Virus record (IMG/VR): IMGVR_UViG_3300042350_004528
Location: 124,001-188,000 of that record
Direction: 5' to 3' (one strand)
Length of the DNA: 64,000 nt
From: a virus
Below the pieces are notes generated by a model. The model saw nothing but the letters and a program-made list of their open reading frames with translations, was not told where the DNA came from and did no database searches. This document shows positions 4,623 to 60,804 of this stretch, piece after piece. Numbering within the stretch: the stretch's first letter is position 1; every line of letters begins with the position of its first letter. Position numbers and translations under genes: made by a program.

Positions 4623-5339
4623 ATGGCATTAAAAATTTTAAAAGAAAACGAAGAGGGTTTTGGTATAATCATTGACCATGATGCTGGATCAATCACAAGA
4701 GAAATTAACGAACAATTCTTAAACGAAAGTACGATTAGTGGTACTCTTGATTTAACAAAACCAATTATATACTATGCGACACTACAAAAATATGGTGTTG
4801 AGAATAGGAATGGTAGAATATATCCAGAGGATATTTTAAAGAAAGAGGTTGAAAGATATCGCGATGTTATAAGAAGAAACGCAAGCTTTCATGAATTAGA
4901 TCATCCACAAGAATCTGTTATATCATTAAAAGGCGGTTCACCGCATAGAATATTGGATATGTTCTGGGAAGGTAATGCGTTGATTGGTAAACTTGAGATA
5001 TTAGTATCTGATGGTTATAGAAAAAATGGCGTTATATCTTGTCATGGTGATTTAGTCGCTATGTACCTTTCATACGGTATGACACTTGGTATATCATCAA
5101 GGGGTATTGGCTCTCTTAAAAAAATTAATGGTAAAAATGTTGTTCAAAGTGATTTTGAACTTATTTGTTGGGATATAGTATCATCACCATCAACCCCAGG
5201 TTCTTATTTATACAAAAATCCTGAGGAATTTTCTAAATATGATGAGGTACTACCAGACACCGAACCACAAAAAATTATAACAACTAAAGAACCACAAGAT
5301 GAATTTTTGAGTAAATTAAGTTCATTTTTGGGTAAATAA
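4623..5339 (+). CDS. Prohead maturation protease (T4 gp21-like)
   Basis: 238 residues, near T4 gp21 length. Herpesvirus-assemblin-type serine protease features are visible: NGRIYP after the first strand, HELDHP at 90-95 supplying the catalytic His (probably His94), and GISSRG at 156-161 supplying the nucleophilic Ser (158 or 159). FELICWDIVSSPSTPGS near 178-194 is also typical of the family. It digests the scaffold and trims head proteins after an (L/I)xE motif in T4. This matters here because the capsid protein and several accessory proteins of this window carry matching LxE sites near their N-termini. Confidence 0.9.
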   Translation: MALKILKENEEGFGIIIDHDAGSITREINEQFLNESTISGTLDLTKPIIYYATLQKYGVENRNGRIYPEDILKKEVERYRDVIRRNASFHELDHPQESVISLKGGSPHRILDMFWEGNALIGKLEILVSDGYRKNGVISCHGDLVAMYLSYGMTLGISSRGIGSLKKINGKNVVQSDFELICWDIVSSPSTPGSYLYKNPEEFSKYDEVLPDTEPQKIITTKEPQDEFLSKLSSFLGK

Positions 5340-5698: not shown

Positions 5699-5737
5699 TT
5701 TTATTTATTAAGAATTACGAACTTTTGCAAAATGCTT

Positions 5738-5746
5738 GATATTTAT
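5738..5746 (+). promoter_or_regulatory. Candidate late promoter for scaffold/capsid genes
   Basis: GATATTTAT right after the terminator at 5671-5698 and 43 bases before the scaffold start at 5790, so scaffold and capsid genes form their own transcription unit. Confidence 0.55.
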
Positions 5747-5789
5747 TATTAGCATTATAGACAAAATAATTTTTTTAAAAAAAAATAAT

Positions 5790-7040
5790 ATGAGTAAAAC
5801 TAGCATTTTAGCCGAAACCCTAGCTGAGATACAAGAAATCAAAGAGGGTATTGAAAAGAACGCAAATCATGTTCTTAGAAGTACTTTAAAAGATGACTTG
5901 GAAGCAATCGTTAGAAAAGGCTTAAACGAAGCTGAAGAAGATATTCAGCCAAATGATATGGTTGGTGATGGTGATCCAGCCGATCAAGGAAGTGAAATTG
6001 CGAATCCAGAAGAAATGCCTTCTGATGAAACGGACATTGACCCAACTGCTGGTGTTGATGCTGGTGAAACAGAAGTGATTGATTTAACACAAGAACCTTT
6101 TGAAAAGGTTTCAGATGAGTTTGATCGCATGCAATTAACTGACGAGATCGAAATCGTTAAAACCCCAGAAGGTGGCATTCAAATTAACATTGAACCTACT
6201 GGTGCTGAAGCTGGCGCTGAAGAGATGCCCGCTGATGAACCAACTCCAGGTGAAGACGAAATTGTTGCCGCTGATGATTTAGGTGCTGAAGCTGGCGCTG
6301 AAGAGATGCCCGCTGATGAACCAACTCCAGGTGAAGATGATGAAACCATGAAAGAAAATGAAGTTGTGTATGAGATTGAAATTGCAGAAGATGCCGCAAT
6401 TTCTGAGACTACCGAGGAAGTTAAAGAAGAAGGAACCGAAGAGGTTAAAGAAACTACTGAGGAAGTTAAAGAAACTGTTGAAGAAACATTAACTCCAGAA
6501 AAAGAAATGGAAGAGGATGTTAAGCATGTTACAGCAAAAGCTCATATGAAGCACAACACAGAAGAGTTACATGAGAGTTTAGTGGCTACTAGAAAGAAGT
6601 TACAGGCTTTAATGACTGAAAATAAAATTAAGTCTCAAGAACTAGACAATGTTAACACTTTAGTTGAAGAGTTTAAAAATGCTGAGGTTGAATATAAATC
6701 AGCAATTAAAAATCTCAAAGGTCAATTACAAGAAGTTGCATTGTTCACATCAAACTTAACTTACGCTGTTAAATTAATGACTGAAAATTCAACTACTAAG
6801 GATGAAAAATTAGATATCCTTAAGAGATTTGATTCAGCTAAAACTTTGACAGAATCAAGAGAGGTTTTCAATAGTTTAGAATCGTTATTTAAAACAAGCA
6901 AAAACACGGTTGAAAAAACTATCGAAGAAAGAGTTCTTGAAACACCTAAGGCCAGTGGCGCTTCAAATTTAAATGAGTCCACAGCCTACAAGAATCCACA
7001 ACTCGAAAGAATGTTGGATATCATTGGAAAAATTAAATAA
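5790..7040 (+). CDS. Prohead scaffold/core protein (gp22 position)
   Basis: 416 residues from the ATG at 5790; the frame is open 54 bases further upstream, but that segment overlaps the putative promoter. The sequence is strongly acidic and helical: an N-terminal helix (LAETLAEIQEIKEGIEKN), a central Glu/Asp/Pro-rich part with a duplicated GAEAGAEEMPADEPTPGEDE unit, then a long coiled coil (about 250-340) and a C-terminus NPQLERMLDIIGKIK. Composition and position directly before the major capsid gene match T4 gp22, the internal scaffold that the prohead protease digests. Assigned from context and architecture, not from a recognised domain. Confidence 0.75.
   Translation: MSKTSILAETLAEIQEIKEGIEKNANHVLRSTLKDDLEAIVRKGLNEAEEDIQPNDMVGDGDPADQGSEIANPEEMPSDETDIDPTAGVDAGETEVIDLTQEPFEKVSDEFDRMQLTDEIEIVKTPEGGIQINIEPTGAEAGAEEMPADEPTPGEDEIVAADDLGAEAGAEEMPADEPTPGEDDETMKENEVVYEIEIAEDAAISETTEEVKEEGTEEVKETTEEVKETVEETLTPEKEMEEDVKHVTAKAHMKHNTEELHESLVATRKKLQALMTENKIKSQELDNVNTLVEEFKNAEVEYKSAIKNLKGQLQEVALFTSNLTYAVKLMTENSTTKDEKLDILKRFDSAKTLTESREVFNSLESLFKTSKNTVEKTIEERVLETPKASGASNLNESTAYKNPQLERMLDIIGKIK
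6201..6337 (+). repeat. In-frame 81-bp duplication within the scaffold gene
   Basis: 56 bases at 6201-6256 recur identically at 6282-6337, an 81-base period. It encodes two copies of GAEAGAEEMPADEPTPGED in the acidic region. Confidence 0.9.
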
Positions 7041-7073: not shown

Positions 7074-8660
7074 ATGGGTGCATTATTAGAATCAGGAAAA
7101 GTTGGTAACGTAAGTTTAAATCATTTAAAAACTGTACGTACTGACGTAATTAACAGATGGGACAGCTTAGGTCTTTTAGAAGGCTTAAATGGACATCGTA
7201 AAGAGAACATCGCTCAGTTGTTCGAAAACCAAGCTTCATACATGTTGAACGAAGCTACATCATTAGGTGTTGAAGGTTCTTTCGAAACTGTTGTGTTCCC
7301 TATCGTGAGAAGAGTATTCTCAAAATTATTAGCAAACGAAATCGTTTCTGTACAAGCTTTGAACTTACCTATCGGTAAATTGTTCTACTTCGTACCGAAA
7401 ATCGGTAGATCAGAATTTGGTAAATCAGGTGGCCCAGAAAGCAATGACCCAAGAAACCAAATGCAGATGGCTGAAGCTTTCAGTGCTAACAAGAATACAT
7501 ACGATGCTTTCTACGGAGAGGATGGTTTGTATGATAAATCAAAAGGTGAGGCTACAACAGCTACTGGTACAACTCATACCGCTAGCTTGTTTAAGTTCAG
7601 CACATCTGGTTTCGCGGTAAAAGCTGGTACCACAATTACATCTGGTACAACTGAAATCGTTAAAGTTACTTTAACTGGTGCTGGAAACTTCGAAAATGCT
7701 GAAGAATTCTTAAGCACAATGGCAGTTTCTTATACTGGTGGTACTTTGGATTATTATTTCCCATCTCAGAAATATGGTACACAGTTAATGGATGGTTCAG
7801 GTGTAACTTATATCGCAGTTGTTGCCCCAGATAACGACAACGTTGATTTGTCTGACATCACTGTAACTTACAAGACTTACGATTCATTAGAATTGTCTGA
7901 CTCAATGGGTGAAGTAAGCTTCGAACTTCAATCTGTAACCGTATCGGTTATCGAAAGAAAGTTAAGAGCACAATGGTCTCCAGAATTAGCTCAAGACGTG
8001 TCAGCGTTCCATAACATTGACGCGGAAGCTGAATTAACAGCTTTATTGTCTGAGCAAGTTGCTGCTGAGATCGACCGTGAGATCTTAAGAGACTTACGTA
8101 GAGGTGCTGCTTGGAGATTGTCATGGGATTACGCTGGTGTTACTGGCCGTGGTATCGACACAACCAACGCAGGTGCATTCTATACTCAAAAAGAATGGAA
8201 CCAAACCTTGATCACTGCGATCAATCAAGTTTCTGCTCAAATCCACAAAGCAACTCTTCGTGGTGGCGCAAACTGGATCGTATGTTCAGCTGAGGTTTCT
8301 GCAATTTTTGATGATTTAGAATACTTCCACGTATCTAACGCTGCTCCTGAGCAAGATAAATTCAACATGGGTATTGAAAGAGTGGGTTCACTTTCTGGTC
8401 GTTACCAGGTTTACCGTGATCCTTACTTCCCAGCTGACACAATCTTGATGGGACACAAAGGAACTTCATTGTTAGACACAGGTTACATTTACGCACCATA
8501 CGTGCCAATGCAATTAACCCCTACAATGTATAATCCGTTTACCTTCGCTCCAGTTAAAGGTATCATGACTCGTTACGCTAAGAAAATGGTTAACAACCGT
8601 TTCTATGGTGTGATCAAAGTTAAGAATATCGTTAGCTTCGGTATCGATGGTTTCAGATAA
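7074..8660 (+). CDS. Major capsid protein (T4 gp23-like)
   Basis: 528 residues, T4 gp23 size. N-terminal part: VINRWDSLGLLEGL, then NIAQLFENQASYMLNEATS, then VFPIVRRVFSKLLANEIVSVQ, which is the gp23-family pattern. MLNE-A at residues 57-61 is placed like the T4 maturation site (after Glu65), so the mature shell protein would begin at Ala61. Codon use is richer in C- and G-ending codons than in neighbours, as expected for the most highly expressed gene. Ends with a shared bidirectional terminator. Confidence 0.93.
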   Translation: MGALLESGKVGNVSLNHLKTVRTDVINRWDSLGLLEGLNGHRKENIAQLFENQASYMLNEATSLGVEGSFETVVFPIVRRVFSKLLANEIVSVQALNLPIGKLFYFVPKIGRSEFGKSGGPESNDPRNQMQMAEAFSANKNTYDAFYGEDGLYDKSKGEATTATGTTHTASLFKFSTSGFAVKAGTTITSGTTEIVKVTLTGAGNFENAEEFLSTMAVSYTGGTLDYYFPSQKYGTQLMDGSGVTYIAVVAPDNDNVDLSDITVTYKTYDSLELSDSMGEVSFELQSVTVSVIERKLRAQWSPELAQDVSAFHNIDAEAELTALLSEQVAAEIDREILRDLRRGAAWRLSWDYAGVTGRGIDTTNAGAFYTQKEWNQTLITAINQVSAQIHKATLRGGANWIVCSAEVSAIFDDLEYFHVSNAAPEQDKFNMGIERVGSLSGRYQVYRDPYFPADTILMGHKGTSLLDTGYIYAPYVPMQLTPTMYNPFTFAPVKGIMTRYAKKMVNNRFYGVIKVKNIVSFGIDGFR

Positions 8661-39734: not shown

Positions 39735-40103
39735 ATGAAACCAATCGGTTCGGAAAAAATACAAAACGCAGATGAAAAACTAGCTAGAATTCTAGAAATT
39801 GCTGGCGTTAAAAAAGGATCAATAAATGAATCTAAACCATTGTATGGTAGATTAGCCAACGTTTTACACGAATCAGTTGCTGCTGATGGAACTGAATATG
39901 GCATTGTTCAAGAGGAAAAACACGTTTACATAAAAGTAAGAAAAAACGATAACTACGAATATATCACTGGAGTTGAAAACATCCGTGAACATTCTTATAG
40001 ATCATACGCTGATGCACTTAAACACTTGAACTTGATGTTCAAGCAAATTAATGAAAGTGTGGGGCAAAATGAAAACATTGACGTTTTAAAAAAAAAAGTC
40101 TAG
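39735..40103 (+). CDS. Hypothetical virion-type protein, N-terminal part of a frameshift pair
   Basis: 122 residues in frame 0: an N-terminal helix (KIQNADEKLARILEIAGVKKG), then a beta-rich domain (GTEYGIVQEEKHVYIKVRKND) and a helix. It ends KKKV-stop just after a run of ten A (40088-40097). In the -1 frame the sequence continues without break as SLDEKYVLRLKTPAAQ into the next ORF. Either a programmed -1 shift on A-AAA-AAA or a single-base indel joins the two. Confidence 0.7.
   Translation: MKPIGSEKIQNADEKLARILEIAGVKKGSINESKPLYGRLANVLHESVAADGTEYGIVQEEKHVYIKVRKNDNYEYITGVENIREHSYRSYADALKHLNLMFKQINESVGQNENIDVLKKKV
40088..40097 (+). other. Candidate -1 ribosomal slippery site (A10)
   Basis: Zero frame reads TTA AAA AAA AAA GTC TAG, a perfect A-AAA-AAA slip heptamer directly before the stop. 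Slipping back one base gives a 423-residue fused product of the ORFs at 39735 and 40115. Confidence 0.55.
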
Positions 40104-40114
40104 ATGAAAAGTAT

Positions 40115-41005
40115 GTGTTAAGGTTAAAAACACCAGCGGCACAACCAACTCAAGATTTTACTGACACAACATTTACGGAGCCATCTGGAGAGACATCAGA
40201 TGGTTCTTCTGTTTCTACCGATCAATCAACAGCTGATTTGGAGGCCGATTTATTAGATACAAATCAAAGTGAACCTGCTGTTGACGGTGCAGAAATGGAT
40301 ACAACCACAACCGACACAACTGTCGCTACTGACGGTACAGAAGCTCCAGCTGAGGGTGGTGAAGAAGATCCTGTAAAATCAATTCAAAAATTAACAGGTA
40401 AATTATCTCAACAGATTCGCGATACACAAGATAAACTCGAACCAGAGGATATTAAATACACATTAAATTCAATTATATCAGCAACCGATATCAATAAATT
40501 AAGTGACGAGGATAAAACTGATATTATGAATAAAATTGAGAATAAAGACCAGGAACCACAAGAAGAGGTTCCGACTGAAACTCCAGCTGAAGAACCAGTA
40601 ACCGAAGGTGAAGATGGTGATTCAGAATCTAATTTTTACGAATCTTTATTATCTGATAAAACAGTTATACATATTTTAGATATGGCTGACTTGAATTACG
40701 AGATGAGAAATAATCCAGAAGAGATTGCATTTGATTTTTGCGAAGCTGCTTATGTTTTTATTCATGATTATAATGATTCAAATGAATTTATTCAAAAACT
40801 AAAAATATTATTAAACGAAAATCAATTTAAGGCGAGACCTAGTTTAAATTCAAAAGATGATCTCGAATATTTTGGTGATAAGATTTATGATGCTTTGGTT
40901 AAACATGAAACCGAACATGGTGGTGAGGTTTTAATGGAACAAAGAATAATTTCAATTCTGGAGAGAGCAAGACAAAACGTAAAGAATAATTTAAATAAAC
41001 AATAA
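40115..41005 (+). CDS. Acidic hypothetical protein, C-terminal part of a frameshift pair
   Basis: The only start in the ORF's first part is GTG at 40115 (297 codons); the same frame is open back to about 40082 and lines up with the end of the preceding gene. Residues 10-90 are low-complexity Thr/Glu/Asp/Ala, then SIQKLTGKLSQQIRDTQDKLEPED and an EDINKLSDEDKTDIMNKI-type helical domain, more acidic linker, and a structured C-terminus (LLSDKTVIHILDMADLNYEM, EHGGEVLMEQRIISILERA). Likely a virion or assembly protein immediately before the 1085-residue gene. Function not recognised. Confidence 0.6.
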   Translation: MLRLKTPAAQPTQDFTDTTFTEPSGETSDGSSVSTDQSTADLEADLLDTNQSEPAVDGAEMDTTTTDTTVATDGTEAPAEGGEEDPVKSIQKLTGKLSQQIRDTQDKLEPEDIKYTLNSIISATDINKLSDEDKTDIMNKIENKDQEPQEEVPTETPAEEPVTEGEDGDSESNFYESLLSDKTVIHILDMADLNYEMRNNPEEIAFDFCEAAYVFIHDYNDSNEFIQKLKILLNENQFKARPSLNSKDDLEYFGDKIYDALVKHETEHGGEVLMEQRIISILERARQNVKNNLNKQ

Positions 41006-46203: not shown

Positions 46204-46602
46204 ATGAAATTTATACCAAAAGAAAGGTACGCAATTAATTATCCAGGTAGAAATACCTTAATACTTGTTGACGTTGATAAATTTTTAAATCGTTTAAAAA
46301 AAGATGACCCAGATTTTTATGTTGGGCCAGATACAAAATTATTATTTAGTCAGGGTAGAATTAAAAACTCAATGGATTACATTGAAAAGTTTTCAGAAGA
46401 TCCCAGATCAATTCATCCAAAAACGGGTGAGAGGTGGTCGTACACTATGATGTTTGAACCAACCGAAACAAGTATATCTAACGGTAAATTAGGTATAAAA
46501 AATGGTAGACACAGAATGGTTGCTTTAAAGAATTTAGGTTACACCCATGCTTATGTTGAGGTACCCAAAGATCAAACTGATTTATTTAAAGATTTAGCTT
46601 AA
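46204..46602 (+). CDS. ParB-like (ParB/sulfiredoxin fold) protein
   Basis: 132 residues. The C-terminal half, GKLGIKNGRHRMVALKNLGYTHAYVEVP (about 98-125), is the ParB-like pattern (substrate loop G-R-H-R, then a helix and a final strand). The N-terminal half defines the entry strand (RNTLILVDVDKFLNRL). Such phage domains include nucleases, kinases and serine-dependent enzymes, so the activity is not fixed by sequence. Its 3' end overlaps the convergent gene by 4 bases. Confidence 0.7.
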   Translation: MKFIPKERYAINYPGRNTLILVDVDKFLNRLKKDDPDFYVGPDTKLLFSQGRIKNSMDYIEKFSEDPRSIHPKTGERWSYTMMFEPTETSISNGKLGIKNGRHRMVALKNLGYTHAYVEVPKDQTDLFKDLA

Positions 46603-47183
46603 CAACCAAGCGTTTGTTTTGCTTCATTGCGCAAGTTTTCGTTGTAAATCCCATCCTCGTCATCAACATTTTCACATGTAACAATTAGGAAAAATGCAGC
46701 GCCAGTAGTCCACTCATCCATATTACCAATACCTAAGTTTTTACCCTTTTTAGTATGATAATTTAAATAACTCTCCAAAGCATCACCAATTTGGTCATCA
46801 TCTACATATTCCTTCCAATCACTAGCGGTTGTTAAATATTTACCATCCTCATCCTCATCCTCTTCTTGAGCCCTTTCTAAAAAGTCCCATAATTCATCTT
46901 TTATGTCGCTGTTTTGATCATCCCAAACTTCATCCATTGTATATAACAATTCGTTAGTTTTTTTGTTTTTTAAAAGGTATTCACCACTAGTAACACTAAC
47001 TAATTCATAATCACCACTAGCTGTTATTGCATCACTCATATGCGGATCACTTTGATTCCATGGGGCGTCTGGCGTATCTGAGCCAGCTGGGTAATTATAA
47101 TTATCCATCTCTTGAACTCTCTTCATTTCTAATTTCTCGAACAATTTTTGTAATTGGTCTTCGGTTATTCTGTATTTAGCCAT
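46599..47183 (-). CDS. Hypothetical acidic protein with YRITEDQL tag
   Basis: 194 residues. N-terminus MAKYRITEDQLQKLFEKLEM matches a short helix tag also seen at 48177-48779 (MKKTYRISETQFAAIL). The body is acidic (EDEDEDGKYL, DDQIGDALESYLNYH) and ends in a LRNEAKQTLGC segment. Preceded by a late-type promoter. Function unknown; the tag suggests common targeting of the two proteins. Confidence 0.7.
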   Translation of the reverse strand: MAKYRITEDQLQKLFEKLEMKRVQEMDNYNYPAGSDTPDAPWNQSDPHMSDAITASGDYELVSVTSGEYLLKNKKTNELLYTMDEVWDDQNSDIKDELWDFLERAQEEDEDEDGKYLTTASDWKEYVDDDQIGDALESYLNYHTKKGKNLGIGNMDEWTTGAAFFLIVTCENVDDEDGIYNENLRNEAKQTLGC

Positions 47184-48176: not shown

Positions 48177-48779
48177 TTAATATTCAAAAATAATTTTATT
48201 TGGTTGTAATCTACCGCTGATGGCTTGAGTATAAAAAGCATCGCCACTTTCATAAGTTCTATTAGATTCAAATACAACCTCAGTATCCATTGATGGAATT
48301 TCAATATTTTTTCCACCCAAATCCATAGTCCCACTTAAAGTGTTTGTTTTTAAACCACTTCTATCGAACTCTAATTCAAAGTCTTTCTCAAAAGAATCAT
48401 CATCACCAGTTAATTCCAATGAGCCATAAATCAAAACACTAATAGGTGATAAATAAACATCTTTAATACCATATGACCTGTATTCTATTTCAATTGAATA
48501 GTTGGCAACGGCCCCACGAAATGTTATATATGTGTCATACTCAACACCATCCACAATCACAGTTGCCCCCCTTGTCCCTGGTTTTGCTATGTTTTTAAAT
48601 AAAGCTTCCATATCGATATCTAGATCAATATCGGAACCACTTTTCAATTCGTTTCTAAAAACATTATTAGATGCGTCAGCCTCATTCATATTAGCTGATT
48701 CGTTAGATTGTTTGTCTTTTTGTTTTTTACTGAGTATGGCAGCAAATTGAGTTTCAGATATTCTATATGTTTTTTTCAT
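48177..48779 (-). CDS. Hypothetical protein with YRISETQ tag
   Basis: 200 residues. N-terminal helix MKKTYRISETQFAAILSKKQ, then a short linker with ESANMNEADAS (an xNE-A site like the capsid cleavage motif) and a beta-rich domain to the end (SIEIEYRSYGIKDVYLSPIS, LELTGDD, FELEFDRSGL). Reads as a tag plus a jelly-roll-like domain. Preceded by a late-type promoter 12 bases upstream. Confidence 0.7.
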   Translation of the reverse strand: MKKTYRISETQFAAILSKKQKDKQSNESANMNEADASNNVFRNELKSGSDIDLDIDMEALFKNIAKPGTRGATVIVDGVEYDTYITFRGAVANYSIEIEYRSYGIKDVYLSPISVLIYGSLELTGDDDSFEKDFELEFDRSGLKTNTLSGTMDLGGKNIEIPSMDTEVVFESNRTYESGDAFYTQAISGRLQPNKIIFEY

Positions 48780-51017: not shown

Positions 51018-52193
51018 TTAAATGTAATTAATAATCTTTTTAAATCTATTAATCGCCTCGTTAAGTTTCTCATCTTCTTCGTAAACTTTACCTTCAGCAC
51101 CAGCTCTCATTTTCATAAAAGAACCCTCTTCTTTAACTTCTTCCTGACCACCCTCTTCCATTGGCTTATCTTCACCTTCAGCAAAAGTACCGTCTTCTCT
51201 TACAGCGCCCGATTCAATATCATCCATACTTGGTACAGCGTATTTGTTAGTCTCTTGTTCTTCGTAATCTTTTATCATAGCTTCAATCTCATCAACACCA
51301 TCTTGAGCGTTTTTGGTGAAACCTGTTAGTCTGCTATAAGCATTACTCAACCACTGTTTAACTTTTCCGAACATTTCTTCAACACCCTCAAAAACTTTCG
51401 AACCATCAATCTTTAATTGGCCTTTAACCTTTGAGGCTACTTTAGAGTTTTCTAAAATTTGTTCAAGAACTTTTCTAGTGTTCTCGTTAACTTTTGTTAA
51501 CGCAGTCTCAAACGCATCTTTATATGATGTTGTTAATTTTTCAGATTCCTGGATTATTTCAACCAACATCTCATCTATTGAAATTTTTAGTTTTTCGGCA
51601 CCTTGGGTCTGACCTTTAAATGCATCCATAACCTCTGGAACCAAAGCGCTTTTTTGTGTTTCCAAATCAGCTATTGATTCTTTATAAGTTTTTAACGCCT
51701 CATCTAATTGAGTTTGAATTGTTTTTAATTCAGCTATTTTTTGGTTAATTGTATTTTCCATATTTTCATTTATATTTTTTTTATCGTCATTGGTTTTAAC
51801 ACCAATCTTGGTGGTTTTACCCCAAACTGATGTTCTTATTTTACCCTGTTTGTTTTTTAATGTCACCTCAACTTTTCCACTCGGCGTTTTAGCCCCACTT
51901 GAAACTGAAACTATTTCTTCACCACTGGTAATTATATCACCCTTTTTTAAGTATTGGGCTTCTTTTCGATCAACACCTTCCTGTAAACTTTTTTCATCTT
52001 TATCAATACCCATGGCAACTCTAAAATCATTATAATCGTAAGCCAAGTCGGTTGCATATCTGTAAACGGCTATATCAATTTTACCGTCTGGGTATTTACC
52101 CCAGCAATACACCCATTTCTCACCACCCATTTCAAATGGCGTTTCATCTCTGTATGGTTTGTAATATTCAACAACATCCATAGTACTTCTCAT
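51018..52193 (-). CDS. Virion-type protein: N-terminal phage domain plus coiled coil with C-terminal tag
   Basis: 391 residues. Residues ~18-60 (FEMGGEKWVYCWGKYPDGKI, DIAVYRYATDLAYDYNDFR) are a conserved phage domain of unknown role. A small SH3-like region follows (YLKKGDIITSGEEIVSVSSG), then a long coiled coil (about 150-320), an acidic linker and the terminal helix KLNEAINRFKKIINYI. That last helix resembles the tag placed at the N-terminus of other accessory proteins here. Late-type promoter upstream. Internal or tail protein is likely. Confidence 0.7.
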   Translation of the reverse strand: MRSTMDVVEYYKPYRDETPFEMGGEKWVYCWGKYPDGKIDIAVYRYATDLAYDYNDFRVAMGIDKDEKSLQEGVDRKEAQYLKKGDIITSGEEIVSVSSGAKTPSGKVEVTLKNKQGKIRTSVWGKTTKIGVKTNDDKKNINENMENTINQKIAELKTIQTQLDEALKTYKESIADLETQKSALVPEVMDAFKGQTQGAEKLKISIDEMLVEIIQESEKLTTSYKDAFETALTKVNENTRKVLEQILENSKVASKVKGQLKIDGSKVFEGVEEMFGKVKQWLSNAYSRLTGFTKNAQDGVDEIEAMIKDYEEQETNKYAVPSMDDIESGAVREDGTFAEGEDKPMEEGGQEEVKEEGSFMKMRAGAEGKVYEEDEKLNEAINRFKKIINYI

Positions 52194-53027: not shown

Positions 53028-53645
53028 ATGAATCATCATATCGAAGACGAATTAAAACAAAAGTACCCAGACATCAGGTTTGAGTTATACCCAAATGAAA
53101 AGCACAAAAGGATATATCTCACTGGATTTATGGTTCCACCTAACATGCGTGGAACTGGTATTGGTACTTCTTTTATGAACGATTTAACAAGTCTTGCTGA
53201 TCAACACGGTTATAAATTAACATTAACACCATCAAGCAGTTATGGTGGAAATGTGAACAGATTGAAAGATTTCTACCAGAGATTTGGTTTTGTTTTTAAT
53301 AAAGGTGATAATCGTGATTTCACACACAAGGAAGATATGTACAGGGATCCTAAGATTAATGAAGAGGATTCGTCAAGCACATCGAGCACATCAAGTGGTT
53401 CAAGTGGTGGGACATCAGCCTCAAATAGTCCAGTACCAGATAGAGTTAAAAAAGGAAAAGCAAATCCAATATCAAATACTGGTAAATACGAATTTGGTAC
53501 AACCAGAGGAAAAGCAAATCCAATATCAAATACTGGTGCTTATGACTTTGGAACAAATCGTGGCCCAGCAAACCCAATATCAGAAAATAAAAATAATCGC
53601 CTGGATGAGGCGATTATTAATATGAAAAAATTGATTAATTTTTAA
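53028..53645 (+). CDS. GNAT-type acetyltransferase with repeat tail
   Basis: 205 residues. MVPPNMRGTGIGTSFMNDLT (about 45-62) is the acetyl-CoA P-loop-like motif A (R-G-x-G-I/L-G) and RLKDFYQRFGFV near 78-90 is motif B. A Ser/Thr-rich linker follows, then GKANPISNTG(K/A)Y(E/D)FGT units twice and a shortened third, and the terminal helix NNRLDEAIINMKKLINF. The acceptor is unknown. The C-terminal helix fits the accessory-protein tag, so it may be packaged. Late-type promoter upstream. Confidence 0.7.
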   Translation: MNHHIEDELKQKYPDIRFELYPNEKHKRIYLTGFMVPPNMRGTGIGTSFMNDLTSLADQHGYKLTLTPSSSYGGNVNRLKDFYQRFGFVFNKGDNRDFTHKEDMYRDPKINEEDSSSTSSTSSGSSGGTSASNSPVPDRVKKGKANPISNTGKYEFGTTRGKANPISNTGAYDFGTNRGPANPISENKNNRLDEAIINMKKLINF

Positions 53646-54804: not shown

Positions 54805-55518
54805 ATGAATTTAAACGAGCAGATATTAAGAATGAAAACCATGATCGGTTTATCCGAGGTTACCATTCCACAATCAATTAAAAAATCGGTTGGTGATGTT
54901 TTGTTTGGTTCAAATCCAATAATTGCAAAAATTCAAAACAAACCAATTGAAAAGAATACCCCATACGAGGATAACCTGGTTGACAAAATAAAGGATTGGA
55001 CATTTCAATCAACAGAAAAATCCGAGATGGGCGTTGTATCAACAATATCCGATTTAATTAAACTAAAAAAATATTTTCCAGAGGTTCTCAACCCACCGTA
55101 TGGTGAAAAAGTTTACAGAGGAACATCGGTTAAATTACCAGAGCTATCCAAATTCATAAAAGAAAACCCAGAACATGATGTTTTGGATAACGGTGCGGTT
55201 AAATTTAAAACACCCTACCAGTATACCCCAAAAAGAGAAGTTAGTAGTTGGAGTGCATCCTTGTTCTACGCATCATCATTTCAGGGCAAATCATTCGAGA
55301 GTGCTGTGAATGTCCCAGTTATTTTTGAAACAACTGTCGATGACACATTCATTATGAATCCAAAAGTTATGAACATCATATTTAAATCAACGGGCGGTGT
55401 TCACCAGGATTTTATAAGGGACGAGGACGAGATTATGAAGTACAACCCGAGTGGTACTTACCATCTAATTTTGTCAGAAGACGAATACGAAATATTCGCA
55501 CCAAATGCCGAGGTCTAA
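54805..55518 (+). CDS. Predicted ADP-ribosyltransferase with capsid-targeting-like tag
   Basis: 237 residues. Residues 1-19 are the tag NLNEQILRMKTMIGLSE-V. From about 100 on, an R-S-E class ADP-ribosyltransferase core is visible: KVYRGTS (Arg105), SSWSAS (147-152, the STS-type strand) and DEDEIM (Glu207-x-Glu209), followed by the usual closing strands. The order and spacing are those of VIP2/C3/Alt-type enzymes. T4 Alt is such an enzyme that is packaged in the head and injected to modify host RNA polymerase. Here the tag ending in LSE suggests packaging by the same protease-linked route. Fold assigned from motifs; target unknown. Confidence 0.7.
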   Translation: MNLNEQILRMKTMIGLSEVTIPQSIKKSVGDVLFGSNPIIAKIQNKPIEKNTPYEDNLVDKIKDWTFQSTEKSEMGVVSTISDLIKLKKYFPEVLNPPYGEKVYRGTSVKLPELSKFIKENPEHDVLDNGAVKFKTPYQYTPKREVSSWSASLFYASSFQGKSFESAVNVPVIFETTVDDTFIMNPKVMNIIFKSTGGVHQDFIRDEDEIMKYNPSGTYHLILSEDEYEIFAPNAEV

Positions 55519-55535
55519 AACCGCCGAAGGCGGTT
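55519..55535 (+). terminator. Hairpin after the ADP-ribosyltransferase gene
   Basis: AACCGCC-GAA-GGCGGTT overlapping the end of the gene; followed by GCGAAAAAATTTTTC, not a clean T-tract. Confidence 0.5.
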
Positions 55536-55568
55536 GCGAAAAAATTTTTCTTTTAAATGAATTTTTCT

Positions 55569-55576
55569 TATTTTTG
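55569..55576 (+). promoter_or_regulatory. Possible host-like -7 element
   Basis: TATTTTTG matches TAnnTTTG; the -33 position is TTTT only. Start of the next gene is at 55606. Confidence 0.4.
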
Positions 55577-55605
55577 TGATATATATGTAAAATAATCAGA
55601 ATATA

Positions 55606-55788
55606 ATGTCGATGACCAACGAAGAAATAGCAGAAGAAATCTACCACCAAGCGTTTGATCTCGGATTTATCGATTTACTTCGTGAAAAGGTTGGTTATAT
55701 TTACAAAACAACGCATGTGAAAGATCACAGTGATGTTGTGCAAAAAGCATATAATTTATTGGTTACAGAAGGTTTGATACAACTATGA
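55606..55788 (+). CDS. Small hypothetical protein (60 residues)
   Basis: MSMTNEEIAEEIYHQAFDLG ... VGYIYKTTHVKDHSDVVQKA, helical. A 21-codon frame (MRFRRKYNNNNN...) overlaps its stop as ATGA and runs into the terminator; too short to accept. Function unknown. Confidence 0.6.
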   Translation: MSMTNEEIAEEIYHQAFDLGFIDLLREKVGYIYKTTHVKDHSDVVQKAYNLLVTEGLIQL

Positions 55789-55835
55789 GATTCAGAAGAA
55801 AATACAATAACAATAATAATAAAATAGTAATTGGA

Positions 55836-55864
55836 AATCCTGTCATTTGACAGGATTTTTTTTT
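55836..55864 (+). terminator. Terminator before the aaRS-like gene
   Basis: AAATCCTGTC-ATTT-GACAGGATTT followed by eight T. Confidence 0.9.
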
Positions 55865-55892
55865 GCGCCAAAAATTAAACAAAAAAAAACAA

Positions 55893-56708
55893 ATGAAAAA
55901 CACAGAAACTTACAATGAACTCGTGCAGAAGATGCGCAAATTCTTTCTTGAAAGAGGATTCAAGGAAGTGCCAACACAATCAAGATTATCAATTCTCGCG
56001 GCTTGTGAGAACCCACACTCGGTTAAAACGTTCGAGTATGGTGGTTTGATCTGGCCGTTGCCACAGACTGGACAGATGTGGCTTGAGTATGAGTTGTTAA
56101 AGAATCCAGAATGGAATGGCGTATTTTGCGTATCAACATCGTACAGAGAAGAAAAGAACCCAATCCCAGGAAGGCATGAGCTTATCTTCCCAATGTTTGA
56201 GTTTGAGTCAAAGGGAACCATGGAGGATTTAATCAAAATGGAAGGCGACCTTTTGGCTTATCTTGGATTTGGTGATGAGATGGTTCAAGTTAAATACGAT
56301 GATGTGTGTGAGGAATACGGTGGGGTACCAATTCTTGAGGATGAGCATGAATCCAGAATGTGGAATGAAAAGGGTAATGTTGTTTCATTACAACACTTCC
56401 CAATCAGAACAAATCCATTCTGGAACATGAAACACAATAACGATGGGATTTTCAACAAGGTTGATGTGATTCTTTACGGACAGGAAACAATTGGATCCGC
56501 CGAGAGAAGCTGCGATGTTGAGAAGATGAGAGAAATGTTTTATGCTATTGAGAACGGTGCGTATTGCGCCAAGTTGTTCGAGTTATTCGGAAAAGAAAGG
56601 GTTGAGGCTGAGCTTGAGGAATTCTTGAAGCACAATTTCTTCCCAAGATATGGTGGTGGAATCGGGATGACCAGAATGGCCAGAGCGTATGAGTTATTAA
56701 AGAAATAA
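55893..56708 (+). CDS. Class II aminoacyl-tRNA synthetase-like catalytic core (Asp/Asn type)
   Basis: 271 residues from ATG 55893 (a TTG 30 bases upstream lies in the terminator T-tract and is rejected). Motif 2 is CVSTSYREEKN-PIPGRHELIFPMFEFE, motif 3 GGGIGMTRMARAYELL at the end, and GQETIGSAERSCDVEKM lies between. That is the AspRS/AsnRS-AsnA catalytic fold with no N-terminal OB anticodon-binding domain. Stand-alone cores act as asparagine synthetase A (AsnA), or as amino-acid ligases (PoxA/GenX). Which one is not decided here. Codons (AAG, GAG, TTG) differ from AT-rich neighbours. It ends at a bidirectional terminator. Confidence 0.75.
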   Translation: MKNTETYNELVQKMRKFFLERGFKEVPTQSRLSILAACENPHSVKTFEYGGLIWPLPQTGQMWLEYELLKNPEWNGVFCVSTSYREEKNPIPGRHELIFPMFEFESKGTMEDLIKMEGDLLAYLGFGDEMVQVKYDDVCEEYGGVPILEDEHESRMWNEKGNVVSLQHFPIRTNPFWNMKHNNDGIFNKVDVILYGQETIGSAERSCDVEKMREMFYAIENGAYCAKLFELFGKERVEAELEEFLKHNFFPRYGGGIGMTRMARAYELLKK

Positions 56709-56737
56709 AAAAAGGGGCGAAAGCCCCTTTTTCTTTT
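56707..56737. terminator. Bidirectional terminator
   Basis: AAAAGGGGC-GAAA-GCCCCTTTT between the + aaRS-like gene and the - gene ending at 56743. Confidence 0.9.
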
Positions 56738-56742
56738 TATCT

Positions 56743-57360
56743 TTAATCTTCTCCGCCCCAATCTTTATAATCACCAAATCTTTCGTTGTCTTCATAACCA
56801 GCGTTGTACGCTTCGATTTCTTCTGGTGTTAAATCGGTGATTCTCTCACCTTTGTAAGTTCCTTCTGGATACTTATGTGGGCTCTTGGGTCTTCTGTAAT
56901 ATGAATCGGCGTGACCGCGATCATATGGTGATCCGTGCGAATCATCGTATTTCTCACTTCTACCCTCCTGAAATATTTCAGTTCTTGGTTCATCGTAATG
57001 ATCCAACTTACCTATTGGGTAACGTTCGCCCGTCTCAGCGTTGTATTTAATGATTATCTTACCATCATCACTATCACCTATAAAATAATGTACATTATCA
57101 TCAGCTAAACTATAATATAATGGTCTGTCATAATCGTCAAACTCTCTTTGAACAACTTTTTCACCACTTGCGGATTCGATCGCGGCTTTTTCGAAATCGA
57201 AATCACTTTCCATTTCCTCGCCACCTCTTTCGGAATTATAGTTAAAAATATCATCGGTGTATGCATTTGGATTATCCACCTTTGATAGATCAATTTCTTC
57301 ATTAAGACCCATTATTTTGCGGAGTCTCGCAATTTCTTCATTTAATGTATTCTTTTTCAT
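56743..57360 (-). CDS. Acidic accessory protein with capsid-targeting-like tag
   Basis: 205 residues from ATG 57360; the frame extends 19 codons upstream through the promoter and is rejected. Tag NTLNEEIARLRKIMGLNE-E (4-21), then a strongly acidic body and a C-terminal element DRGHADSYYRRPKSPHKYPE ... LTPEEIEAYNAGYEDNE known from other phage proteins of unknown function. Late-type promoter 19 bases upstream. Candidate packaged protein. Confidence 0.7.
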   Translation of the reverse strand: MKKNTLNEEIARLRKIMGLNEEIDLSKVDNPNAYTDDIFNYNSERGGEEMESDFDFEKAAIESASGEKVVQREFDDYDRPLYYSLADDNVHYFIGDSDDGKIIIKYNAETGERYPIGKLDHYDEPRTEIFQEGRSEKYDDSHGSPYDRGHADSYYRRPKSPHKYPEGTYKGERITDLTPEEIEAYNAGYEDNERFGDYKDWGGED

Positions 57361-57379
57361 AGAAAAAAACAATTTATTG

Positions 57380-57388
57380 ATAAATAGT
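57380..57388 (-). promoter_or_regulatory. Candidate late promoter
   Basis: ACTATTTAT on the minus strand, 19 bases before the start at 57360. A plus-strand AATATTTAT at 57403-57411 lies too near the next + start to be a usual promoter for it. Confidence 0.5.
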
Positions 57389-57415
57389 TTGTCAAATCCA
57401 AAAATATTTATGAAC

Positions 57416-57724
57416 ATGGTAAAACTTTTTGAGAGAATACATATCCCATTGTGGATCGCAAAGGATATGTTCTGGATGTTGGGTCAGGGCGAACTCTCAT
57501 TGGCTTTCGCGATACCAACCATAATATTATCAACAATACTCATAACAGTAAAACAGGGGTCGGAAAGGTGGCTCGAGATGATGATGGCCTTTTGGTTATC
57601 AGCCAATACCTTATGGATGTCCCACGAGCTTTTTCATACGGACACAAAAGAAATTGCATTAACCTGTTTTTTATTTGGCATTTTAACAATTCCAATCTAT
57701 TTATTAAAGATAAAAGAAGAATAA
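57416..57724 (+). CDS. Multi-span small membrane protein
   Basis: About 102 residues from ATG 57416 (57410 also possible). KLFERIHIPLWIAKDMFWML, LAFAIPTIILSTILITVKQG, WLSANTLWMSHELF and ALTCFLFGILTIPIYLL give about three membrane helices. The IHIPLW-KD-FW and AN-WM-HELF patterns are ones I associate with a small Bacteroidota membrane family of unknown function. It lies 8 bases before the fusion gene at 57733. Confidence 0.65.
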   Translation: MVKLFERIHIPLWIAKDMFWMLGQGELSLAFAIPTIILSTILITVKQGSERWLEMMMAFWLSANTLWMSHELFHTDTKEIALTCFLFGILTIPIYLLKIKEE

Positions 57725-57732
57725 AACTAGTT

Positions 57733-59307
57733 ATGAAACTAACTGAGGAAATAAAGAAAATGCAATCCATGATGGGCATTATGTCCGAGGATGTGAAAAT
57801 ATACGCAAACGGTGTTGGATCTGAGGTGTTTAATGATAACGAACATTACGGAAAGGTTGATGATATTAATTTAAATGACACCATAGCAAATGAACCGTTT
57901 AAGGATATGGAATACATGGATAAAAGTTCCAATGTCGATGATATGGTTCAAGCCTTGAAATCTGGTGAAGAGCTGCCACCAATACTTGTTATTCAACACC
58001 CCTTCGACCAATCAAAATATTTGGTTGTCGATGGAAACCATAGAAGATACGCATATGACCGCGCAGGTGCTGATAAGATTCCAGCCGTTGTGATTAAACC
58101 AGAGGATGTTTTGTTAATGCAATCCGATTGGGGTGATCCAGAGGAAAAGGCGATCAGATTATCTGATGTTATATCCGATCCAGAGTTGTTTGCTCGAGAA
58201 AACACAAGAATGTTAATTGACAAGTATTTTGTTAAACCAGACGGATCACATGAGTTCGAATTGAATGAAAATTTATATGAGGAAAAGAAAAAAGCCGATC
58301 GTTGTTTAAGAATAGCGAGAAGAAAATACAGCAAACCATCAGCATATAGATCTGGTGCAATCGTTCAATGCAGAAGAGGAAAGATATGGAGAGGTTTGAA
58401 GGAAGAGGAGATCCAAATGATTGACAACGCACCAGAGGAAATGCAAGGTTTGATCGCCAAGGCTCACGATGCTTTGACGTGGAAGAGGGGTCGAAAAGAA
58501 TATGCTCCAGATTTTAATGAACTTCAAACATGGGTGGATGCTTATTTGGAGACTGACGGTGGAATGCATGAAGCGAAGAAAACCGATTTCTCAAAGGAGA
58601 AAAAGAGCGGACTTCACGGATGGTTTTCAAGAAGAGGTGGTGGCGGAAGCAAAGGATGGGTTGATTGCAACACATGCAGAAAAGTTGACGGAAAGAAAAA
58701 ATGCAAGGCTTGTGGAAGACAAAAGGGTGAGGTGAGAGCCAAGTACCCATCATGCAGACCAACACCAGCATCATGCGGAACACCAGGAAAGGGAAAATCT
58801 TGGGGCAAGACAAAGGAAGAGGGTTACAGCTTGAATGAAGCCAAGGAGATGAAGAGAGTTGCTTTGCTTTTCATTGTGATTGACAACGAAGCGTTGTTGT
58901 TCAAGAGAAGCGAAGACGAAACAACAAATCCAGGAAAATACGGAATGCTTGGTGGTGGAATTGAAAAGAATGAAACGCCAGAGGAAGCAATCGTGAGAGA
59001 GATCAGAGAAGAAGCTGGTGTTGAGTTGAAATCATTCAAACCACTGAAGAAATATATTTACAACAACGAGTGTGAATTAAACGTATTCTACACAAACGAA
59101 TTTCCAATTGATGATGTTGTGCTTGACAAGAACGAACACACATCGTACAAATATTTCACGATGGAACAATTGATAGATATGGATCCAAAGGATATGATTG
59201 GTTCCAACAAAGAAATCGCGAAGGATTACAACGAGATCGCAAACAAGAAAAAGAAATTGGAAGAAGAGATAGAGAGAATAAAAGCTACGATGAAGATTCT
59301 TATTTAA
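57733..59307 (+). CDS. ParB-like / Cys-rich / Nudix fusion with tag
   Basis: 524 residues; an upstream extension in the frame overlaps the membrane-protein gene and is rejected. Tag KLTEEIKKMQSMMGIMSE-D (2-20); ParB-like domain (~60-125) with VVDGNHRRYAYDRAGADKIP; the phage motif ADRCLRIARRKYSKPSAYRS and CRRGKIWRG (188-221); a Cys-rich DUF5872-like region (~290-360) with GLHGWFSRRGG, C312/C315, C324/C327, YPSCRPTPASC; and Nudix hydrolase (~373-490) with box G408-x5-E414-x7-REIREEAGV. Ends in KKKLEEEIERIKATMKILI. ELNE-N (176-179) and SLNE-A (366-370) lie between domains and could be cut by the head protease. The 3' half has G/C-richer codons. Nudix could remove NAD caps, NAD-derived or (p)ppGpp-type nucleotides; substrate unknown. 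Confidence 0.75.
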   Translation: MKLTEEIKKMQSMMGIMSEDVKIYANGVGSEVFNDNEHYGKVDDINLNDTIANEPFKDMEYMDKSSNVDDMVQALKSGEELPPILVIQHPFDQSKYLVVDGNHRRYAYDRAGADKIPAVVIKPEDVLLMQSDWGDPEEKAIRLSDVISDPELFARENTRMLIDKYFVKPDGSHEFELNENLYEEKKKADRCLRIARRKYSKPSAYRSGAIVQCRRGKIWRGLKEEEIQMIDNAPEEMQGLIAKAHDALTWKRGRKEYAPDFNELQTWVDAYLETDGGMHEAKKTDFSKEKKSGLHGWFSRRGGGGSKGWVDCNTCRKVDGKKKCKACGRQKGEVRAKYPSCRPTPASCGTPGKGKSWGKTKEEGYSLNEAKEMKRVALLFIVIDNEALLFKRSEDETTNPGKYGMLGGGIEKNETPEEAIVREIREEAGVELKSFKPLKKYIYNNECELNVFYTNEFPIDDVVLDKNEHTSYKYFTMEQLIDMDPKDMIGSNKEIAKDYNEIANKKKKLEEEIERIKATMKILI

Positions 59308-59378
59308 CCTTCGCAAAGACAAACGCTACCTTCACATTCTGGGCAGCAAGTTCCTGGTTCAACCACGGGTAAAAACAT
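59304..59378 (-). CDS. Possible Cys-rich micropeptide (24 residues)
   Basis: MFLPVVEPGTCCPECEGSVC then LCEG, with C-C-x2-C-x5-C-x-C, could bind a metal ion. It lies after a terminator and converges on the fusion gene, with stop codons overlapping. No clear promoter. Confidence 0.25.
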   Translation of the reverse strand: MFLPVVEPGTCCPECEGSVCLCEG

Positions 59379-59400
59379 TAAAGACAATTTTTATTATAGA

Positions 59401-59425
59401 AAAAAAGGATCGATTAGTTCGATCC
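59401..59425 (-). terminator. Terminator after the gene at 59414-59965
   Basis: Minus strand GGATCGA / TCGATCC around the stop codon followed by seven T. Confidence 0.8.
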
Positions 59426-59965
59426 ATTTTCATTTATATTCTTTTCAACATTCTGTTTCATCCCGCGAACCATTTTAAGAAGACTGGAGTTATCGGTCTT
59501 AACGATGGTTGTCACCTGTGGTTCAGGTTCACGTGGCATTATCATGGCTGATACCTCACCGTCCCCAGAACCAGAACCGCCAGTTTCCATGCGAAGAGTT
59601 CTTTCGAAACGAACTGGTGAGCTGGTTGAGGTTGAAACAACTTTATTATGTGTCTTTTGAGCTTCACTCTCCATATTGGTCAACATCTCAAGAATTTCCT
59701 TCTCACGAGATATGAATCTGTCCGTGCAAACGGTTTGATTGCTGATAACAATATCATTAAGTTCATTCACCCTGTCACTAAGGCTCTTTATCATAACCTT
59801 TTGGTTTTCCACCTTGTGTAATAATTCCTCATTATCTTGGGTAAGACCTTCGATAAGCTTAGGGCCAATTGAGATAATCACAATGGACAAAAGAACAATC
59901 CCAAGAGCAGCAAGACGCTGTTTCATGGAGATCTTTGAGATGATTTCTGAAATATATTTAAACAT
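59414..59965 (-). CDS. Membrane-anchored coiled-coil protein
   Basis: 183 residues. N-terminal amphipathic part, one membrane span at about 19-38 (LAALGIVLLSIVIISIGPKLI), a coiled coil (45-105: NEELLHKVENQKVMIKSLSDRVNEL), then a Ser/Thr/Gly-rich part and a MPREPEPQV linker. Shape is that of an inner-membrane spanin or other lysis accessory, but it stands away from the lysis cassette and has a late-type promoter. Function uncertain. Confidence 0.65.
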   Translation of the reverse strand: MFKYISEIISKISMKQRLAALGIVLLSIVIISIGPKLIEGLTQDNEELLHKVENQKVMIKSLSDRVNELNDIVISNQTVCTDRFISREKEILEMLTNMESEAQKTHNKVVSTSTSSPVRFERTLRMETGGSGSGDGEVSAMIMPREPEPQVTTIVKTDNSSLLKMVRGMKQNVEKNINENGSN

Positions 59966-59983
59966 GTCTCTATTTGTTTAAAT

Positions 59984-59992
59984 ATAAATATT
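59984..59992 (-). promoter_or_regulatory. Candidate late promoter
   Basis: AATATTTAT on the minus strand, 18 bases before the start at 59965. Confidence 0.5.
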
Positions 59993-59995
59993 CGT

Positions 59996-60022
59996 GTTTA
60001 CAGTAAATTGTTTACTGTAAAC
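59996..60022. promoter_or_regulatory. Perfect 12-bp palindrome upstream of a late-type promoter
   Basis: GTTTACAGTAAA-TTG-TTTACTGTAAAC, no T-tract on the minus side, placed where a -35 region or operator would lie for the gene at 59965. Confidence 0.6.
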
Positions 60023-60120
60023 TAAATTAAAAGCAACGGGGGTAAAAATTACCATAATGTGTCACCATCCCCAGGAGGGTGTTCGGAATAAAGGGTTTGT
60101 AAAAATTGTGGGGTTATGAA
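60023..60120. other. Short non-coding stretch
   Basis: Between the palindrome and the stop of the next gene. Holds GGTAATTTTTACC (minus) and no ORF above 20 codons. Confidence 0.5.
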
Positions 60121-60804
60121 TTATATTCCAACGGTTGGTGAGTCCATGTTCTCACTTAAACCATAATGTTTCTCAACCAAAGTTTCAAAGTAATTTAAAA
60201 GTCCTTCTTTACCAATACCACTTTCTTTGGCTTTCGCAATGAAGTCATCAGCACTAGCACCAATTCCACCTTGAATCCAGTCCACATCAGCAGCTGTGAT
60301 TATTTTTTCATTGATTGGTTCCTCACTCATTCTATTTAAAAAACTATTTAATTTTCCATTACTATAAGTTAAACCAAGTTCTTTGGTTAACTTTTCAAGT
60401 ACTCTAACCACTTGAGTTTTATATGGGTCTGAATAAGCTCTAACAAAAGATCCAGAGCCACGATTAAACATGAAACCGTATATTCTTTGATCTATTTGAC
60501 TAATCACATATTTTTTCTTCTCTTCTGGTTCTGTTGGTATTGACCCAGTATATTTTTGGTCTGACTCAACAAAATCGGTTACCAGTTTATTAAAAGCTTC
60601 CACAAATTCTTTTGCTTTTGTTGGATTTTCTTGCCAAGAATCATTACGAGCACTATTATTAATTGATAAACCTTTAATTATTGGTTCCATACGTCCAAAG
60701 CCATCATCAATTATTTTAACGGAATCAACGAACTCGTTTAGATTCTCATTAAGGCCCATCATCTGGCGTATTCTTAAAACTTCTTCATTTAAGGTATTAT
60801 TCAT
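60121..60804 (-). CDS. Accessory protein with capsid-targeting-like tag
   Basis: 227 residues. Tag NTLNEEVLRIRQMMGLNE-N (3-20) is nearly the same as in the protein at 56743. The body is helical (about 55-135 with KAKEFVEAFNKLVTDFVESD, RVLEKLTKELGLTYS) and ends near MDSPTVGI. No catalytic motif recognised. Late-type promoter 21 bases upstream. Candidate packaged protein of unknown activity. Confidence 0.7.
   Translation of the reverse strand: MNNTLNEEVLRIRQMMGLNENLNEFVDSVKIIDDGFGRMEPIIKGLSINNSARNDSWQENPTKAKEFVEAFNKLVTDFVESDQKYTGSIPTEPEEKKKYVISQIDQRIYGFMFNRGSGSFVRAYSDPYKTQVVRVLEKLTKELGLTYSNGKLNSFLNRMSEEPINEKIITAADVDWIQGGIGASADDFIAKAKESGIGKEGLLNYFETLVEKHYGLSENMDSPTVGI

Follow-up and report, generated by a model that had tools for sequence, protein, structure and literature searches.

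Four genes in a 64,000-base stretch of virus DNA (bases 124001-188000 of the 298,833-base IMG/VR record IMGVR_UViG_3300042350_004528, G000; hereafter the window) open with a shared tag of 16-21 residues, LNEEIxRIKxMMGLNE, which is likely to be a capsid-targeting (prohead-loading) signal that mimics the phage scaffold, resembling the signals of phage T4 in function and unrelated to them in sequence. The virus head is probably loaded with the tagged proteins, which would be cut free inside it and delivered at infection. The tagged genes start at 54805(+), 57360(-), 57733(+) and 60804(-), and their remaining parts (here, cargoes) are unrelated to one another. Scanned with a hidden Markov model (HMM) built from 40 tags, the whole record shows these four copies and no others (E 4.7e-9 to 2.8e-6), and in leave-one-out scans of six frames each of the three closest copies, queried with the remaining tags, scored far above all else.

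A first-pass annotation, made from the letters alone, had assigned the tag to five proteins. Four of them hold; the fifth, 41013 (LNEVNDMRRHMGLPLLSE), is missed by the tag profile and was rejected as a carrier, having a loose resemblance to the tag and three [LI]NE tripeptides within its first 40 residues. The strings listed at that time are real, but the first two had been swapped, and the copy at 57360(-) reads KIMG instead of xMMG. A profile search over this phage and its relatives, which had been proposed as a check, recovers many copies elsewhere besides the four here, though not 41013. The idea of a purely N-terminal tag is too narrow, as tags also stand at C-termini and between domains and appear to mimic the scaffold end; the C-terminal copies (51018-, 53028+ and the end of the 57733 protein) and the scaffold C-terminus had gone unmentioned. 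Two proteins adjoining 41013, at 39735-41005 (+), are possible further core proteins; one starts EKLARILEIAGVKKGSINE/SKP (here and below, a slash marks a proposed cut), a looser tag-like stretch with an INE end, and the second is very acidic.

The tag is widespread among uncultured viruses. Searched in IMG/VR, a degenerate DNA query encoding E[EQ]hxxhxxMMGh matches at least 119 stretches. Among the matches listed, a Met lies <=12 residues upstream in 152 of 165 in-frame matches, 117 tagged N-termini are left after duplicate removal, and the 113 cargoes of comparable length fall into 52 clusters with no detectable similarity between them, in agreement with the earlier statement that tagged proteins are otherwise unrelated. 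A stricter tag pattern, which matches 75 of the collected loci, had no match in 84,980 bacterial and archaeal genomes, and 37 virus records picked by a random 14-mer contained no tag at E <= 0.1. Given the position near a Met and the empty random records and cellular genomes, the occurrence of the tag is, as judged from these counts, far beyond chance. The number of copies reaches ten in large tagged records, where tagged genes often adjoin one another in short runs. Of 17 truly tagged large records, 11 have the gp21 protease family, as against none of the 37 random records (Fisher 1.3e-7; 0.006 when limited to records >=80 kb); in the other six tagged records the major capsid protein (MCP) is missing too, and they look like fragments.

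A second N-terminal tag family, M-x-[IL][ST]E[SNT][EQD]Lxx[IL][IL]xx[VL][IL]xE/, was seen in the same phages, with 17 occurrences at tag loci, 14 at MCP loci and 1 at random loci. Its carriers include 46599-47183(-) and 48177-48779(-) in the window and genes in loci L141, L142, L146, L161, L199 and L212; in L141 (MSKIYLTESELIDLIERVIKE/KTDYSKEKSSGLYGWFSRRG) it is joined to a region also present inside the 57733 protein of the window.

The tripeptide bordering the tag matches the specificity of the T4 head protease gp21, which cuts after L/I-x-E (PMC9026906, PMC5694885). An [LIVMF]xE tripeptide follows the tag helix directly in 39 of the 52 cluster representatives, against a background of 10.6% (the rate at which [LIVMF]xE follows hydrophobic residues in general within the same proteins; P 1.3e-27), and the strict form [LI]xE stands at offset 0/1 in 32 of 52; LNE, INE, LTE, IKE and ITE are commonest. 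Six homologues of the 54805 protein have LSE, LTE or LNE at this site, with L and E fixed and the middle residue free, as in the specificity described for T4 gp21 (L/I-x-E; PMC9026906). Among 81 MCP sequences (the window and 80 relatives), all 81 carry [LI]NE/[AS] at residues 58-61, with varying residues next to it; the copy in the window reads MLNE/A (residues 57-61), and the site lies near the cut in T4 gp23 (after residue 65). The scaffold carries the same tripeptide (KGLNE/AEED and SNLNE/STAY), and FLNE/STIS occurs near the N-terminus of the gp21-like protease, whose presence in the window had been noted correctly in the first pass. That the LxE at the tag border is a cut site of this protease is well supported by the motif.

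The tag appears to mimic the C-terminus of the scaffold. Scaffold homologues occupy the same position in 55/55 scanned relatives, and all 55 end in a form related to that in the window, LxE/S..YENPQFxRMKDLMxK[IL]K. The tag core and this C-terminal helix align in a single register, EEIxRIKxMMG with PQFxRMKDLMG (hhalign P 4.2e-6 over 12 columns). When scored with the tag matrix, the C-terminal segment ranks first in 33/56 scaffolds and second in 20/56 (about 447 segments each), a ranking that amounts to one or a few independent observations since the scaffolds are related; shuffled scaffold C-termini attained the real score 78 times in 11,200. A second tag-like helix (DEEILKVFKAMG / DEEILRVFKLMG) was seen near residues 110-155 of many relatives' scaffolds (e.g., L142, L154, L177 and L187).

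The clearest evidence for the scaffold link is a graft within this genome. A gene of 169 amino acids (aa) at record positions 236866-237375(-) (L366), unrelated to the scaffold otherwise, ends in GTSNLNESTAHKNPQLERMLDIIGKIK, and its last 80 bases before the stop match the 3' end of the scaffold gene in frame with two mismatches; immediately 5' of the LNE site, similarity is no better than background. The gene sits normally in a run of co-directional genes, and no homologues were found in IMG/VR. As read from the DNA, the scaffold 3' end, cut site plus helix, has moved as one unit onto another protein, and the scaffold C-terminus is in this sense portable. The graft, with the fused and split genes described below, also shows that recombination between gene ends occurs, and the shared ends might accordingly be a functionless mobile 5' or 3' cassette spread by homology. 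We regard this as highly improbable: the tags have diverged to 28-67% identity with the first one, and across 52 unrelated cargoes E, MMG, R/K and LxE are nonetheless retained; moreover, a 55%-identical homologue of the ADP-ribosyltransferase (ART)-like 54805 protein keeps its tag even though that tag is now internal.

Tag copies also stand at C-termini and between domains. In relatives, C-terminal copies read LNE/TIERMKSIIGL, LNE/SVHRMKSIISYAI and LNE/DIQRVKEWFKILN, each running to the stop, and LxE stands at the start of the helix in 9 of 18 helix-like C-terminal ends in tagged loci versus 0 of 5 in random loci. Weak C-terminal resemblances to the tag were also seen at record positions 4741 and 10404. 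In L377, the GNAT and ART-like genes, which are two genes in the window, form one frame joined by KLNE/QIIRMREMLNLNE/, so that the C-terminal tag of the former and the N-terminal tag of the latter correspond to one internal element with a cut motif at both borders. One protein in L111 combines GNAT, tag, DUF5872-like, ParB-like and Nudix regions with a tag at its end; L083 encodes one N-terminal and one internal tag; and in the 57733 protein the DUF5872-like and Nudix regions are each closely preceded by [LI]NE, at residues 179 and 369. From these arrangements it looks as though multidomain cargo is loaded as a polyprotein and freed by the head protease, and the 57733 protein is a candidate for such a packaged polyprotein.

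The identifiable cargoes include enzymes. A Nudix domain, proposed in the first pass, is confirmed in the 57733 protein (1.1e-16), where the scores for ParB (6.9e-5) and DUF5872 (3e-4) are below Pfam curated cut-offs. The ART assignment of the 54805 protein was not confirmed in the same way: what speaks for it is a conserved R...S-S-W...E-x-E pattern, with YRGT, SSW and E-x-E invariant across six homologues, but Pfam and PDB profiles gave no match and the AlphaFold2 model is not usable (pLDDT 42). Cargoes in other loci match ART-PolyVal (L048, 1.5e-19), DUF3990/ART-PolyVal (L076), M15/VanY peptidase (L046), a thioredoxin-like protein (L112) and the anti-CBASS protein Acb1 (L035; 6.1e-7, above the curated cut-off), and they are sparse and patchy between genomes. 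These data bear on the alternative that tagged proteins are components of the prohead core, like T4 gp67, gp68 and IPIII, which help in assembly and for the most part end up digested or lost, undelivered. The tag does resemble a scaffold end, LxE sites recur inside some of the proteins and T4 core proteins are cut to fragments (PMC9026906, PMC9958956); even so, we consider the alternative unlikely, as the cargoes include enzymes with host-directed functions (Acb1, ART-PolyVal, Nudix, M15 peptidase and GNAT), have a patchy distribution and carry LxE at domain borders, not throughout. The window features are listed in Table 1.

Table 1. Tags, tagged genes and T4-type head module of the window (window positions; slash, proposed cut; C-terminal sequences run to the stop)
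Feature	Position	Strand	Evidence or remark
N-terminal tag MNLNEQILRMKTMIGLSE/ of 54805-55518	54805..54858	+	HMM E 1.1e-8
N-terminal tag MKKNTLNEEIARLRKIMGLNE/ of 56743-57360	57298..57360	-	HMM E 6.1e-8
N-terminal tag MKLTEEIKKMQSMMGIMSE/ of 57733-59307	57733..57789	+	HMM E 2.8e-6
N-terminal tag MNNTLNEEVLRIRQMMGLNE/ of 60121-60804	60745..60804	-	HMM E 4.7e-9
C-terminal tag KLNE/AINRFKKIINYI of gene 51018-52193	51018..51065	-	
C-terminal tag RLDE/AIINMKKLINF of GNAT protein 53028-53645	53601..53645	+	
C-terminal tag KLEE/EIERIKATMKILI of 57733 protein	59257..59307	+	
Scaffold C-terminus LNE/STAYKNPQLERMLDIIGKIK	6969..7040	+	Proposed docking helix mimicked by tags
GNAT acetyltransferase cargo, 205 aa	53028..53645	+	PF13508 8.6e-7; phrog_10691 (3925-position family) 2.8e-23
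Cargo, ADP-ribosyltransferase-like by motif only, 237 aa	54805..55518	+	Y-R105-G-T, S147-S148-W, E207-D-E209
Acidic cargo, no family, 205 aa	56743..57360	-	
Multidomain cargo, ParB-like + DUF5872-like + Nudix, 524 aa	57733..59307	+	
Cargo, no family, 227 aa	60121..60804	-	
Portal	545-2392		phrog_213
gp21-like head maturation protease	4623..5339	+	phrog_207 8.4e-35
Scaffold (gp22 position; ATG 5790 likely start)	5736..7040	+	Between protease and MCP
gp23-like MCP	7074..8660	+	phrog_138 1.4e-68

The window also encodes a T4-type head module (portal, gp21-like protease, scaffold-position gene and gp23-like MCP), and we infer that tagged proteins dock to the core or the shell, are cleaved, stay in the head and are finally ejected, as follows. 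The amphipathic tag helix, hxRhKxMMG, would imitate the scaffold C-terminal helix, QhxRMKDLMxK, and tagged proteins would thereby join the assembling scaffold core or the shell interior. After shell closure, the gp21-like protease would cut after the LxE at the tag border, in parallel with LNE/A in the MCP and LNE/S in the scaffold, releasing the cargo from its tag. Multidomain cargo would enter as a polyprotein and be split inside the head, given that tags, bordered by LxE, may head a protein, end it or lie between its fused domains. By analogy with T4, the freed proteins would then leave the head together with the DNA and take effect immediately in the host. The first-pass proposal of a capsid-targeting tag cut after LxE is in this sense upheld at the level of sequence (LxE in 39/52, the invariant MCP motif and the association with the protease), its packaging, cleavage and injection steps being probable. 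There is also a reasonable case for a broader reading, in which a modular, scaffold-derived "address and cut" cassette, placed at either protein end or between domains, serves a widespread group of uncultured T4-like phages to load dozens of anti-host proteins, an anti-CBASS enzyme among them, as proproteins or polyproteins, so that protease-trimmed counter-defences would arrive with the DNA.

Besides the kinship of the scaffolds noted above, several points weigh against a capsid-targeting function. The literature yielded no virion proteomics on these phages. In the MCP the cut is followed by A or S, whereas tags mostly have N, D, S or E there. The cultured-phage collection gave no tagged relative: no tag came up when immuto, Mel-JY01, LR756508, LR756511 and T4 were scanned with the HMM, and tblastn with 23 tag residues against cultured phages, a weak test, gave no match. 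The cultured phage Mel-JY01 has a scaffold ending in LNE/SNNVVERMKKLAGIVK and no tagged cargo; this scaffold end differs (RMKKLAGIVK), and there is no tagged cargo there with which to compare it. As Mel-JY01 and several T4-like records chosen by MCP (G019, G021, G022 and G024) are without the tag, it is, on this sampling, confined to part of the T4-like group. Finally, about one-quarter of tags have no LxE right after the helix, which would also suit a tag that docks to another late structure (tail, baseplate or replication compartment) or to a host factor, the LxE being an uncut part of the motif. We think this improbable in view of the copying of the scaffold C-terminus, LxE included, onto another gene, the match of the tag to the scaffold helix, the invariant LNE of the MCP and the fixed-L, free-x, fixed-E pattern among homologues.

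Two further observations concern the phage itself. The thymidylate synthase gene at 36374-37411 (+) shares about 90% DNA identity over about 150 bp with Flavobacterium immuto phages, and because this is the sole close DNA match of the window region to cultured phages, a host in the Bacteroidota is likely, if unproven. An open frame of 5316 aa at 15607-31557 (-) is strongly repetitive, with the opposite strand also open (4779 codons), and probably encodes a giant repetitive fibre-like protein.

Capsid targeting as such is already known, and we found no published description of this tag in a literature search that did not extend to subscription papers and preprints; a scaffold-mimicking cassette, bordered by cut sites, at protein ends and between domains of dozens of cargoes is undescribed in the searchable literature. 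It would provide a sequence rule by which the injected-protein set of uncultured phages could be read from DNA alone, flagging many unannotated proteins of first-minute host takeover and counter-defence, and a tag with which phage heads could be loaded for protein delivery.

In T4, internal proteins are loaded by N-terminal capsid-targeting sequence (CTS) leaders, which gp21 removes; Alt loses a piece from each end, and both Alt and IPI function in the newly infected host (PMC9026906, PMC5694885, PMC9958956). The cuts in Alt follow ITE-6 and LTE-619 (PMC9026906; PMC5694885). Like the CTS of IPI, IPII, IPIII and Alt, the tag is a short N-terminal leader with a gp21-type (L/I)xE end on unrelated proteins, in a phage that has gp21-, gp22- and gp23-like genes, and T4 Alt also has a C-terminal propeptide that is cut (PMC9026906, PMC5694885). 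Unlike the CTS, the tag also occurs at C-termini and between domains, resembles the end of its own scaffold and is borne by more, and more varied, cargoes; it is about twice as long as the CTS of IPIII (10 residues), the leaders in the window measuring 18-21 residues. Scanning the T4 genome with the tag HMM gives nothing at E <= 1, as the first-pass annotation had anticipated in calling the two distinct, and the T4 gp22 C-terminus (DIVSVYAKVASRF) bears no obvious likeness to the tag. Given that there is no sequence relationship, the tag would work like a T4 CTS rather than being one.

Polyvalent proteins (Iyer et al. 2017, PMC5512222) are multidomain conflict proteins with ParB-like, ART and GNAT domains and are believed to enter the cell alongside the phage DNA. 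The 57733 protein and those of L111 and L377 likewise combine several conflict domains per polypeptide, and two tagged cargoes match ART-PolyVal; unlike polyvalent proteins, for which splitting by an embedded metallopeptidase has been proposed, those described here have LxE borders and a loading tag, and many are single-domain cargoes. In SPN3US and the phiKZ group, N-terminal propeptides of head proteins are removed by a gp21-related protease and have been proposed to target the prohead (PMC5694885). Those propeptides are mostly >100 residues long, with A-x-E in SPN3US, unlike the tag with its 16-21 residues and [LIV]-x-E. In engineered P22 scaffold fusions, a scaffold-derived peptide carries cargo into the capsid; those belong to another phage family and have no release by a head protease, whereas the present tag is natural, and release by protease is proposed. 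How the internal core proteins of T4 are recognised has been described as unresolved (PMC9958956). A natural scaffold-mimicking tag, together with the graft of a scaffold end onto another gene, suggests an answer, namely that cargo joins the core by imitating the scaffold.

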